From positions 2,294,001 through 2,358,000 of the forward strand of contig NZ_AUKG01000001.1 of NCBI RefSeq assembly GCF_000424625.1: a stretch of 64,000 bases of DNA, given 5' to 3'. Below, in pieces: positions 52,002 through 59,602 of this stretch. Position numbers and translations under genes: made by a program. Under the pieces are notes generated by a model. That model was not told the origin of the DNA. It made no database searches and saw nothing but the letters and a program-made list of their open reading frames with translations. This DNA comes from Conexibacter woesei Iso977N (GTDB lineage Bacteria; Actinomycetota; Thermoleophilia; Solirubrobacterales; Solirubrobacteraceae). The stretch's first letter is position 1. Each line of letters opens with the position of its first letter.

Positions 52002-52487
52002 ATGGCTGAACTGACCCCACTGGACGAGAAGCTCGCCGAGGTGCTCGGCCTCGCGCAGGCCGCGCAGGTCGCGACCGGCACCGTGAGCAAGATGGAGGAC
52101 GCCGAGGACTTCGCCGACGACCTGGCGCGCATGGGCGAGCAGGCCGCGGAGACCGAGCGGCGCACCGACGCGCTGATCGACGGGCTCGAGGGCAAGAAGA
52201 CCGCGATCCGCGAGATGGCGCGCGAGACCAAGGGCGAGGCCACCGACATGATGAGGACCTACCTCGCCGACGAGGAGGAGGCGCTCGACGGCTTCGAGTT
52301 CCTGAGCATGGCCGAGGCCGGCGAGCTGTGCCACTGGGAGATCGTCCAGACGATGGCCGAGGAGACCGGCGAGGCCGAGGTCGGCGCGCTGGCCGAGTGG
52401 GCCGTCGGCGTCCAGCGCGAGCACGTCGCCGCGGTCCGCGAGGCGTCGCTGAAGCTCGCCGTCGCAGAGGCCGCGCCGGCCGCCTGA
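52002..52487 (+). CDS. Helical ferritin-like protein, paralogue A
   Basis: A 161-residue, wholly helical acidic protein not assigned to a family. Its features, LDEKLAEVLGLAQAAQVATG, a central ARETKGEATDMMRTYLADEE, and EFLSMAEAGELCHWEIVQTM, match the protein at 59102-59602 throughout. The Glu/His pattern (E-A-G-E-x-x-H-W) and four-helix layout suggest a ferritin-like fold. It overlaps the PRC-barrel gene by one base. The paralogue is next to a Mn catalase, hinting at a stress or metal role. Confidence 0.75.
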   Translation: MAELTPLDEKLAEVLGLAQAAQVATGTVSKMEDAEDFADDLARMGEQAAETERRTDALIDGLEGKKTAIREMARETKGEATDMMRTYLADEEEALDGFEFLSMAEAGELCHWEIVQTMAEETGEAEVGALAEWAVGVQREHVAAVREASLKLAVAEAAPAA

Positions 52488-56052: not shown

Positions 56053-56090
56053 GCCGAGCCGCCCGCGGCCGGGATCGCTGTCCCGGCAGT

Positions 56091-56147
56091 GGGTTGGGCG
56101 TTGGGTTGGCGCCGATGGGGGTACCGCCGATGGGTGAGCTCCGATGG
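56091..56147 (+). repeat. Short direct repeats before the Fur-MGMT gene
   Basis: GGGTTGG occurs at 56091-56097 and 56103-56109. CCGATGG occurs at 56112-56118, 56127-56133 and 56141-56147 (spacing 15 and 14). They flank the chosen GTG and could be a binding site. Confidence 0.4.
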
Positions 56148-57132
56148 CCGGATCGACGACGCCTCCGCCCGCCTGCGGGCGCGAGGGCTGCGGGTCACCC
56201 CGCAGCGACGGGCGATCCTGTCGGCCTTCACGGGCGCCGCGACCGAGCACCTGTCGGCCGACGAGGTGCATGCGCGCGCGGCGGCCGCCGTCCCCGAGGT
56301 CGGGCGGGGGACCGTCTACGCGGCGCTGGCCGAGCTGACCGAGCTCGGGCTGCTGGCCGCGGTCGGCAACCCGGAGCCGGTCCGCTACGAGACCAACGTC
56401 GACGCCCACCAGCACTTCCGCTGCCGCGTCTGCCTGCGGCTCTACGACGTCGCGCTCGACGCGCCGCCGACGGCAGCGCTGAAGCGGCGCGGGTTCGTGG
56501 TCGAGCACACGACGGTCACGGCCGAGGGCATCTGCGCCGACTGCGCCGCGTACGACCGCGGGCTCAGCGACGGCGCGGCGCGCAGCGACGGCGTGCGCGC
56601 CGCCGCCGGGGCCACGATCGCGCTGCCGCGCGGGACCGCCTACGGCGTGGCGGACACGCCGATCGGGCGCGTGCAGATGCTGTGCACCGAGCGCGGCGCG
56701 CTGCGCGTCATGTACGCCGACCACGCCGAAGGCCCGGCGGTCGCCGCAGCGGGCGCGCGGCGCAGGGGTGCGCGCGAGGCGCAGCGGCGCCTGGCCGAGC
56801 TGGACACGGCGATCGACGGCTACTTCGCGCACGGGACGCCGTTCGCGCAGGAGCTCGCGGTCGACTGGGACGCCGCGGCGACCGACCCGGACGACGGCGC
56901 GACGCTCGACGCGATCCGCGCGATCCCGTTCGCGCGCGAACGCTCCTACGAGCAGCTGGGCCTGAGCGACGCCCCGTTCGACCGCGGCGTGTCGATCGGC
57001 AGCAACCCCTTGGCGTTGGTCGTGCCGTGCCACCGCGTCTCCCGCGGGCGGGAGATCACCACGTGGTACGTCGGCGGACCTGAGCGCAAGCGGGCGCTGC
57101 GCGAGCACGAGCGGCAGCACGCCGAGCGCTGA
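56134..57132 (+). CDS. Fur-family regulator fused to O6-alkylguanine-DNA alkyltransferase
   Basis: A 332-residue two-domain protein. The N-terminal part (about 5-140) is Fur-like: GLRVTPQRRAILSAFTG, HLSADEVHARAAAAVPEVGR with GTVYAALAELTELGLL, then HQHFRCRVC and a CADC pair that would bind zinc. The C-terminal part (about 160-325) is an MGMT-like domain with the acceptor-Cys motif NPLALVVPCHRV, preceded by RGVSIGS and followed by YVGGPERKRALREHE. A single continuous frame joins them. The GTG at 56134 gives a typical Fur N-terminus; a longer frame begins at 56089. This probably senses metal or oxidative state and repairs alkylated DNA. Confidence 0.88.
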   Translation: MSSDGRIDDASARLRARGLRVTPQRRAILSAFTGAATEHLSADEVHARAAAAVPEVGRGTVYAALAELTELGLLAAVGNPEPVRYETNVDAHQHFRCRVCLRLYDVALDAPPTAALKRRGFVVEHTTVTAEGICADCAAYDRGLSDGAARSDGVRAAAGATIALPRGTAYGVADTPIGRVQMLCTERGALRVMYADHAEGPAVAAAGARRRGAREAQRRLAELDTAIDGYFAHGTPFAQELAVDWDAAATDPDDGATLDAIRAIPFARERSYEQLGLSDAPFDRGVSIGSNPLALVVPCHRVSRGREITTWYVGGPERKRALREHERQHAER

Positions 57133-57195
57133 CCGCAGGCGCCAACTCGTTTTTACGGGCCGTCCCGATCGGGGAGGCATCCAGCTGAGACATTG

Positions 57196-57207
57196 TCCTA
57201 GTTAGGA
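57196..57207 (+). promoter_or_regulatory. Inverted repeat before the SigB-type sigma factor
   Basis: TCCTA-GT-TAGGA just upstream of the ATG at 57215, with a CCCGATCGGG palindrome at 57164-57173. Candidate regulatory region only. Confidence 0.35.
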
Positions 57208-57214
57208 ACCTCGC

Positions 57215-58003
57215 ATGCCCACGATGCTCCCCACCCCGCCGCGCCGCACCCCCGTCCGCGGCGACCGCGACGACCGGCTCCTGGCCGCCTACGCCCAGAC
57301 CCGCGACCCCCGGCTGCGAGAGCAGCTCGCCGAGCGCTACCTGCCGCTGGCCCGCTACGTGGCCGGCCAGTTCTCGCACTCGCGCGAGCCGTTCGACGAC
57401 CTGCTGCAGGTCGCGAGCCTCGGGCTGCTCAAGGCGATCGATCGCTACGACCCTGCGCGCGGGGCGGCGTTCAGCTCCTACGCCATGCCGACGATCACGG
57501 GCGAGGTGCGCCGCCACTTCCGCGACCACACCTGGGCCGTGCGGCCACCGCGCGACCTCCAGGAGCGCGCGCTGGCGGTCGAGAGGGGGTCCGAGGCGCT
57601 GATGCGCGAGCACGGGCGGGCGCCGACGGTGGACGAGATCGGCGAGCGCCTCGGCCTCGGGCCCGAGGCGGTGCTGGAGGCCCGCGAGGCGGCGTGCGCG
57701 CGCGGCGGGGTCTCGCTGTCGTCGCCCGGCAGCGGCGGGGACGAGGACGACCACACGCTCGAGGCGCGGCTCGGGCGGCCCGACGACGGCCTGGCCGCCG
57801 CCGAGCAGCGCGCGACGCTCGGCGCGCTGACGCGGCAGCTGTCGGTCCGCGACCGCGAGATCGTGCGGCTGCGCTTCGAGGAGGACCTGACGCAGCTGGA
57901 GATCGGGCAGCGCATCGGGCTCAGCCAGATGCACGTCTCGCGGATCCTGCGCGACGCGCTGGATACGTTGCGCGCCGCTGCGCTTGTCAAGACAACGTCC
58001 TGA
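57215..58003 (+). CDS. SigB/SigF-type RNA polymerase sigma factor
   Basis: A 262-residue general-stress sigma factor. Region 2: SREPFDDLLQVASLGLLKAI, DRYDPARGAAFSSYAMPTIT. Region 4: VRDREIVRLRFEEDLTQLEI then IGLSQMHVSRILRDALD. This closely resembles the protein at 8399-9196. It precedes the Mn catalase and follows the Fur-MGMT gene, so it probably drives the oxidative-stress genes around it (inference). No anti-sigma gene is adjacent. Confidence 0.94.
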   Translation: MPTMLPTPPRRTPVRGDRDDRLLAAYAQTRDPRLREQLAERYLPLARYVAGQFSHSREPFDDLLQVASLGLLKAIDRYDPARGAAFSSYAMPTITGEVRRHFRDHTWAVRPPRDLQERALAVERGSEALMREHGRAPTVDEIGERLGLGPEAVLEAREAACARGGVSLSSPGSGGDEDDHTLEARLGRPDDGLAAAEQRATLGALTRQLSVRDREIVRLRFEEDLTQLEIGQRIGLSQMHVSRILRDALDTLRAAALVKTTS

Positions 58004-59101: not shown

Positions 59102-59602
59102 ATGGCGACGCTGACCAAGCTGGAGAGCAAGATCGCCGAGGTGCTCGGGCTGGCCCAGGCGAGCCGGGTCGCCGCCGAGACGGTGAGCGACCTGCTCGAG
59201 GACGACACGCACGCCGAGCTGATCGAGCAGCTCGGCGTGCAGGCGCGCGAGGCGCAGGAGACCGCGAAGCGCTGCACGGCCGTGGCGGGGACGTTCGACC
59301 GCAAGAGGACGGCGATCCTCGCCGCGGCCAGGGAGACGCGCGACGAGGCGGTCGAGATGATGGAGACCTACCTCGAAGGCGAGGACGACCCGCTCGACGG
59401 CTTCGAGTTCCTGATCATGGCGGAAGCCGGAGAGGTCGGGCACTGGCTGATCGTCGCCAAGCTCAACCAGCGCGCGGGCGACGCCGAGGTCCAGGCGCTG
59501 ACCGACTGGGCGCTGCCGGTCCAGGAGGGCCACTTCAAGACCGTCACCGACGGCGCGCTCGTCCTGGCCGGCGCCGCCGACCCGGGCGCCGAGGAGCACT
59601 AG
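59102..59602 (+). CDS. Helical ferritin-like protein, paralogue B
   Basis: A 166-residue homologue of 52002-52487: LESKIAEVLGLAQASRVAAE, a central AARETRDEAVEMMETYLEGE, and EFLIMAEAGEVGHWLIVAKL. Four amphipathic helices are predicted, with Glu/His spacing that could bind metal. It starts four bases after the Mn catalase stop and is certainly co-transcribed with it, which suggests a role in manganese supply or peroxide defence. The family is not recognised. Confidence 0.78.
   Translation: MATLTKLESKIAEVLGLAQASRVAAETVSDLLEDDTHAELIEQLGVQAREAQETAKRCTAVAGTFDRKRTAILAAARETRDEAVEMMETYLEGEDDPLDGFEFLIMAEAGEVGHWLIVAKLNQRAGDAEVQALTDWALPVQEGHFKTVTDGALVLAGAADPGAEEH

Follow-up and report, generated by a model that had tools for sequence, protein, structure and literature searches.

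The locus described here raises the question of whether a Fur-type metalloregulator and an O6-alkylguanine-DNA alkyltransferase can be carried by a single protein and, if so, what such a protein would control. It lies in a stretch of 64,000 nucleotides of Conexibacter woesei Iso977N (the window), which is part of a 5.7-Mb genome, and a sequence-only reading of this DNA had proposed that one continuous frame of the forward strand (56134-57132) encodes both parts and could act as a damage-responsive regulator. We find that this frame encodes one real fusion protein, with homologues in five other genomes, and that in all six genomes its gene is linked to that of an Mn catalase. Our tentative reading, held with a little less than even confidence, is that the product would be a PerR-type repressor of the Mn catalase to which the fused alkyltransferase brings a second, irreversible input.

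Two domains in a single frame

The fusion gene (56134-57132, + strand, as are all features below unless indicated) begins with a GTG codon, an in-frame GTG at 56089 being also possible, and both halves of the 332-residue product lie inside the single open frame. The Pfam search placed FUR (PF01475) at residues 17-125 (56182-56508; E 2.6e-17, 63.5 bits against a gathering score of 23.1) and DNA_binding_1 (PF01035) at residues 258-327 (E 1.2e-9, 38.2 bits against a gathering score of 27), and the pair was unchanged when the longer start was used; no further Pfam family was detected in the protein at E 0.001. With both domains above their gathering scores, the single-frame fusion that had been proposed is confirmed, and the HxHFRC, the two CxxC and the PCHR motifs were found as claimed, the last, which holds the acceptor cysteine, at residues 298-301 (57025-57036). 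The AlphaFold2 model presented two well-formed domains (mean predicted local distance difference test 88.7, predicted template modelling score 0.81), the second of them an O6-alkylguanine alkyltransferase fold covering residues 166-331 (56629-57126); in the alignment used as input (A3) the rows that hold the alkyltransferase alone had their first residues placed in Fur columns, which affected few positions. A linker between the domains is present as had been noted, but it holds a predicted helix of 22 residues (135-156; 56536-56601) and is more than a short loop.

A frame correction that would split the two parts, or an artefact of assembly, is ruled out by the full-length copies in six genomes, since the five further homologues (45-57% identity) are complete and all six proteins match both FUR and DNA_binding_1 (E 0.001). 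An internal stop listed for one of them (G024) was discarded, because the TGA is the terminal stop of an otherwise open gene, which the match overran. The six genomes (the window genome, G000, plus G006, G024, G026, G028 and G068) were found among 146 genomes of the family. A profile built from the six disclosed no seventh fusion when 232 genomes of the order were searched; samples of 399 genomes from the class and 396 from the phylum, in which the best five candidate stretches per genome were scored, yielded none beyond those known, and none of the 13 plasmid records with a match reached 80% query coverage. A contig search among close relatives returned three loci, one of full length (apparently the contig of the metagenome-assembled genome G006) and two with the Fur half alone; the closest full-length relative found was a Conexibacter metagenome-assembled genome (locus L018).

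The Fur halves of the six proteins group together as a single clade (support 100/100), and the same holds for the alkyltransferase halves (support 100/100) when set against 14 stand-alone enzymes, a comparison set of 15 loci from which L016, reading ACHR in place of PCHR, was left out. Because each half forms one clade, a single fusion event is the simplest history, and the patchy presence of the fusion then means losses or transfer. The chance coupling of two neighbouring genes was also considered and is ruled out by the six full-length copies together with the single clade of each half.

The Mn catalase and a predicted operator

In the window, the fusion gene is followed by a gene for a SigB-type sigma factor (57215-58003), predicted to be co-regulated, and by that of the Mn catalase (PF05067; 58099-59097, with a TTG start taken from the alignment with relatives), all three on the + strand, and this catalase is the predicted target. 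In the five other genomes the fusion and the Mn catalase genes are head-to-head, PF05067 being confirmed for all five. The tie to the Mn catalase is thus stronger than the sequence-only reading could have shown, with every fusion linked to it and an operator in common. More distant kin of the Fur half, stand-alone genes of the PerR type from another family of the phylum, adjoin an Mn catalase in 7/7 loci (L121-L127, the best seven matches after the window), the neighbours having been assigned by eye with Pfam run on one and L125 being partial at a contig end; one of these loci (L121) carries TTAGACATTGTCTAA upstream. This arrangement would appear to be an older module in which Fur goes with an Mn catalase. 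Two further kin adjoin a catalase gene and a catalase-peroxidase-like gene, with the proviso that the neighbour gene calls outside the window are rough and include antisense rows.

The head-to-head gaps contain a Fur-type 7-1-7 palindrome, which is clearest at locus L051 (TAGGACA-T-TGTCCTA). The predicted operator of the window, CCTAACTAGGACAATGTCTCA (57186-57206, - strand), differs by one mismatch from CCTANNTAGGACANNGTCYTA and lies in the gap that follows the fusion gene, before the sigma gene. At the expected site CCTANNTAGGACANNGTCYTA was found with 0-1 mismatch in five of the six fusion genomes and with three in G006, whose site (L018) is a 31-base near-palindrome with outer CTCCTAG arms and with 13 matching pairs among the 15 of the arms; its left CCTA arm is seen again at the predicted sites of the other fusion genomes. 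An extra site with one mismatch precedes a second Mn catalase of G024 (L116) that has no fusion beside it and is a likely target in trans. When the six genomes were scanned for CCTANNTAGGACANNGTCYTA with up to three mismatches, 11 of the 14 matches were at Mn-catalase sites (some on both strands). The remaining three, each with three mismatches, lay elsewhere, against eight matches for the reversed-pattern control, and an Ada-like regulon was rejected on this count, with the limit that weaker sites would escape the scan.

Within the window, the 13-base core of the operator had a single exact match (57188-57200). With up to two mismatches there were 13 matches against 3.6 expected (100 shuffles, maximum 9), 11 of them outside the fusion locus; one of the other two, before the Mn catalase (57990-58002, - strand, two mismatches to the core), is a second, weaker and uncertain operator-like site. 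Upstream of the Mn catalases of L048 and L116, the strings GTTT-N16-GGATA and GTTT-N14-GGGATA, respectively, precede the operator. We take these strings to resemble SigB-type promoters, which would fit with the sigma gene of the window copy.

We then compared Mn catalases with and without a relative of this Fur domain in the genome. Of the 146 family genomes, 45 had PF05067, with 53 places listed, of which 51 entered the scan as 53 loci, two of them duplicates (L082 and L085); L117, L118 and L119, with no start or upstream DNA, were dropped, leaving 48 usable Mn catalases. Up to 350 bases of upstream DNA were scanned (less in L073, L096 and L113), and the window was scored positive through the site before the sigma-catalase pair, more than 350 bases from the catalase. 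In genomes with the Fur clade, fused or not, the operator was present before 10 of 11 Mn catalases, and in the rest before none of 37 (Fisher p 1.7e-9). Because the six fusion sites had furnished the pattern, the count that omits them is the fairer one, 4/5 against 0/37 (p 4.5e-5), or 3/4 against 0/37 when the second copy of G024 is also left out (p 3.8e-4); all three p values ignore shared ancestry. On the Mn catalase tree the operator trait needs six changes.

Three of these genomes (G063, G069 and G070) have no fusion and carry a stand-alone Fur protein that shares 51-52% identity with the Fur half of the window protein, and their Mn catalases carry the operator with 2-3 mismatches, the Fur gene and the Mn catalase being on different contigs. 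Since the operator is found there with a stand-alone Fur and no fusion, the Fur half is likely the reader of the operator and the alkyltransferase an addition. The stand-alone kin L052, L053, L054 and L055 (of G067, G069, G063 and G070, respectively) are all beside uvrC (by Pfam in L054, by eye in the rest), and G067 gave no Mn catalase match in the PF05067 search. The Mn catalase closest to that of the window (87-88% identical) was L089 of G005; it has no operator, and G005, a genome about 68% complete, gave no fusion match. Two similar proteins of about 165 residues (52002-52487 and 59102-59602, by eye) flank the region, and the second, directly after the Mn catalase, had no Pfam match at E 0.01.

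Proposed peroxide sensing and alkyl transfer, and the alternatives

That the protein is a PerR-type regulator of the Mn catalase is, in our judgement, quite probable. Such a metal-dependent repressor would bind the 7-1-7 palindrome (TAGGACA-n-TGTCCTA type) in the Mn catalase leader and, in the window genome, would act on the sigma factor-Mn catalase pair; oxidation of the Fe-bound histidines by H2O2 would detach the repressor, and the catalase would rise. Alkylation, or another electrophile, at Cys299 would change the state of the repressor and thereby provide the irreversible second input. In its fullest form the proposal describes a two-damage sensor in a single chain, with peroxide perceived through the metal-bound histidines, alkylation or electrophiles through a suicide alkyltransferase, and both setting the level of Mn catalase, which we consider possible and, on balance, doubtful.

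The evidence on the second input comes from the alkyltransferase half. VIA-align superposed residues 168-330 on the DNA complex of M. tuberculosis OGT (4wx9; Z 16.4, root-mean-square deviation 2.5, 148 aligned), matches to O6-alkylguanine alkyltransferase structures reached Z 16.5, and these results, together with the PF01035 score, bear out the assignment of the C-terminal part to the MGMT type. Tyr272, Asn291, Cys299, His300 and Glu326, whose catalytic roles we take from human MGMT, are invariant in the six fusions. The fold and these residues would also suit an ordinary O6-alkyl repair enzyme without any regulatory part, which the fusion merely co-expresses with the peroxide response, and so would the stand-alone kin, which probably control the Mn catalase with no alkyltransferase domain. 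The part of the domain that reads DNA, however, is reduced. Four residues of the first helix of the helix-turn-helix are missing in 6/6 fusions and in 0/14 stand-alone enzymes (they are missing also with respect to solved OGT), and only residues 273-275 are helical in this region of the model. By eye, the arginine finger is in place in two of the six fusions (G028 and G026) as against all 14 stand-alone enzymes, the other four having Phe, His, Gly and Thr. The alignment check that had been suggested for the window protein therefore has a divided outcome: the Tyr is present, but the arginine finger is absent from its usual place, taken by Phe, with an Arg two residues on that might substitute for it. 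The fusion protein scored 37.3 bits with TIGR00589 (ogt), below the cut-off of 46.4. Moreover, one or more further alkyltransferase matches are present in each of the six fusion genomes, so that the fusion need not be relied on for repair, and we regard a passive repair enzyme as an unlikely explanation. Considering that the cysteine machinery is kept while the DNA-reading part is reduced, a sensor role would be the simplest answer, and to the proposition that the domain has perhaps turned from a patrolling repair enzyme into a sensor we give a weight close to, and just under, even.

As for the Fur half, residues 5-137 were superposed on PerR-Zn-Mn (3f8n; Z 13.9, root-mean-square deviation 2.4, 132 aligned). 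The structural zinc site (Cys97, Cys100, Cys134 and Cys137, the last two outside the Pfam FUR match) is invariant in the six fusions, and His39, His92, His94 and Asp105, which correspond to PerR His37, His91, His93 and Asp104, are kept in 12/12 rows aligned by eye. At the position of Asp85, the fifth ligand of PerR, there is Glu86 in 6/6 fusions and Asp in 6/6 stand-alone kin (by eye), so that the fusions keep four of the five. The top NCBIfam and PDB sequence-profile matches of this half are PerR, although the curated NCBIfam PerR equivalogs remained far below their cut-offs (57.8 against 200 and 53.7 against 180 bits), for which reason we describe the protein as PerR-type and do not file it as PerR. 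On these features, the Fur half resembles a peroxide sensor of the PerR type.

A Fur half responsive to iron or manganese and not to peroxide, with the Mn catalase supplied according to metal status, would be compatible with the Glu at the Asp85 place, a change that may weaken peroxide sensing. It would also agree with the 52 bits of the Bacillus Fur model, close behind the PerR models, and with the fact that the best structural match is the B. subtilis Fur model 9a4a (Z 15.6), which outranks 3f8n, so that the fold alone cannot tell PerR from Fur. Nevertheless, the Asp at the Asp104 place is cited as the key discriminator between PerR and Fur in PMC4866751, where residue 104 is suggested to separate the two. 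According to the same source, B. licheniformis PerR3, which shares the Glu85/Asp104 pair with the fusion, is still oxidised by H2O2, to a lesser extent than PerR (PMC4866751). The Fur-half kin adjoin catalases, and, with the PerR profile matches, this makes a metal-status regulator a rather improbable alternative. A structural role of the alkyltransferase domain (oligomerisation or DNA contact beside the operator, with the cysteine chemistry unused) would accommodate its remodelled DNA-reading parts and the extended palindrome of L018 with its recurrent left arm, but it is very doubtful, as the CCTA arm is also found before Mn catalases whose regulator lacks the domain (L088 and L091; CCAA in L100) and the acceptor cysteine and its partners, needless for such a role, are invariant.

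Several observations weigh against a PerR-type repressor with a second input, beginning with the Glu86, the missed PerR cut-offs and the rank of 9a4a given above. Conservation is lower in the alkyltransferase half, whose matched stretches are 37-46% identical to the window protein, than in the Fur half, where the figure is 58-76%. The operator pattern derives from the fusion sites themselves, the limit of three mismatches was set once these had been inspected, and in place of the Fisher figures, with their disregard of shared ancestry, the ancestry-aware comparison offers only five pairs on well-supported branches, of which four agree, none disagrees and one is undecided (p 0.125). L073, an Mn catalase of a divergent subfamily in the fusion genome G006, has no operator in the upstream DNA scanned. 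The operator of the window is downstream of the fusion and more than 800 bases before the catalase, so that control would run via an assumed sigma-catalase operon and autoregulation need not hold. Finally, to judge from G063, G069 and G070, the added domain is dispensable for the basic role in catalase control. The pattern in these three genomes and the likeness to PerR make catalase control a more likely base function than a response to alkylation; of the damage- or alkylation-responsive regulator first proposed, the intact catalytic set and the tie to the Mn catalase stand, while its base function has to be revised in that sense.

Comparison with known systems

Both halves of the protein, and alkyltransferase-regulator fusions in general, are known already; the combination with Fur was not found in the literature that our searches surfaced, mostly at title and abstract level and with thin coverage of subscription journals. 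To our knowledge, Ada, AdaA and Cada2 are the only cases in which an alkyl-accepting cysteine serves as a gene switch, and a two-damage sensor, if true, would be the first such switch known in a Fur-family repressor. The same alkyl-accepting module would have been recruited again, this time by a likely repressor and for an antioxidant target, which would open a further route, beside the A-box of Ada and Cada2, from an alkyl-accepting cysteine to a gene switch. Two kinds of chemical damage would possibly be sensed by one and the same protein in a soil actinobacterium and a few relatives. With the predicted target, the operator and the residues defined, a single purified protein and a short piece of DNA would suffice to put the idea to the test.

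With B. subtilis PerR (2fe3, 3f8n) the fusion shares the Fur fold, the two CxxC, the ligands His37, His91, His93 and Asp104 and an operator of the 7-1-7 type, and the kin of its Fur half adjoin catalase genes. In contrast, PerR ends soon after the second CxxC, whereas the fusion continues into a whole alkyltransferase domain, and the letters of its predicted operator differ from those of the B. subtilis PerR box. In actinobacterial regulators of the FurA/CatR type, a Fur-family gene adjoins katG, the catalase gene thought to be under its control; the fusion differs in having an Mn catalase gene in the place of that for KatG, and in its fused domain. The alkyltransferases of the Ogt/MGMT type (M. 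tuberculosis OGT, 4bhb and 4wx9) have the fold and the catalytic residues in common with the fusion, but they keep the full helix-turn-helix and the arginine finger, and where their loop reads Y[TAG]GG the fusions have [YF]V[GA]G.

Alkyltransferase chemistry is joined to a DNA-binding regulator in E. coli Ada and B. subtilis AdaA, as summarised in PMC10957082. As to the hallmarks of these proteins, Pfam finds neither an A-box zinc domain nor an AraC domain in the fusion, and the Ada model PRK15435 aligns to it only from model position 190 of 354 on. Among the separate alkyltransferase loci, L004, L014, L016 and L017 show by eye an Ada A-box-like stretch (GGHRxxRIYG...GYRPCxxC) joined to the alkyltransferase, seemingly without the AraC part. 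As to Caulobacter Cada2, neither its B-box (SPHFQR) nor its RLHD motif was seen by eye in the six fusion sequences, whose N-terminal half is Fur. In Cada2, methylation of the PCHR cysteine switches the regulator, C267A being dead and C267G constitutive (PMC10957082), and this provides a precedent for the switch proposed here. Both proteins carry PF01035 at the C-terminal end of a transcription factor, with the PCHR cysteine as a switch that is demonstrated in Cada2 and proposed for the fusion. Cada2, with its B-box-binding and RLHD regions, is an activator of alkylation repair genes (PMC10957082), whereas the fusion has a Fur domain and a catalase as its likely target.
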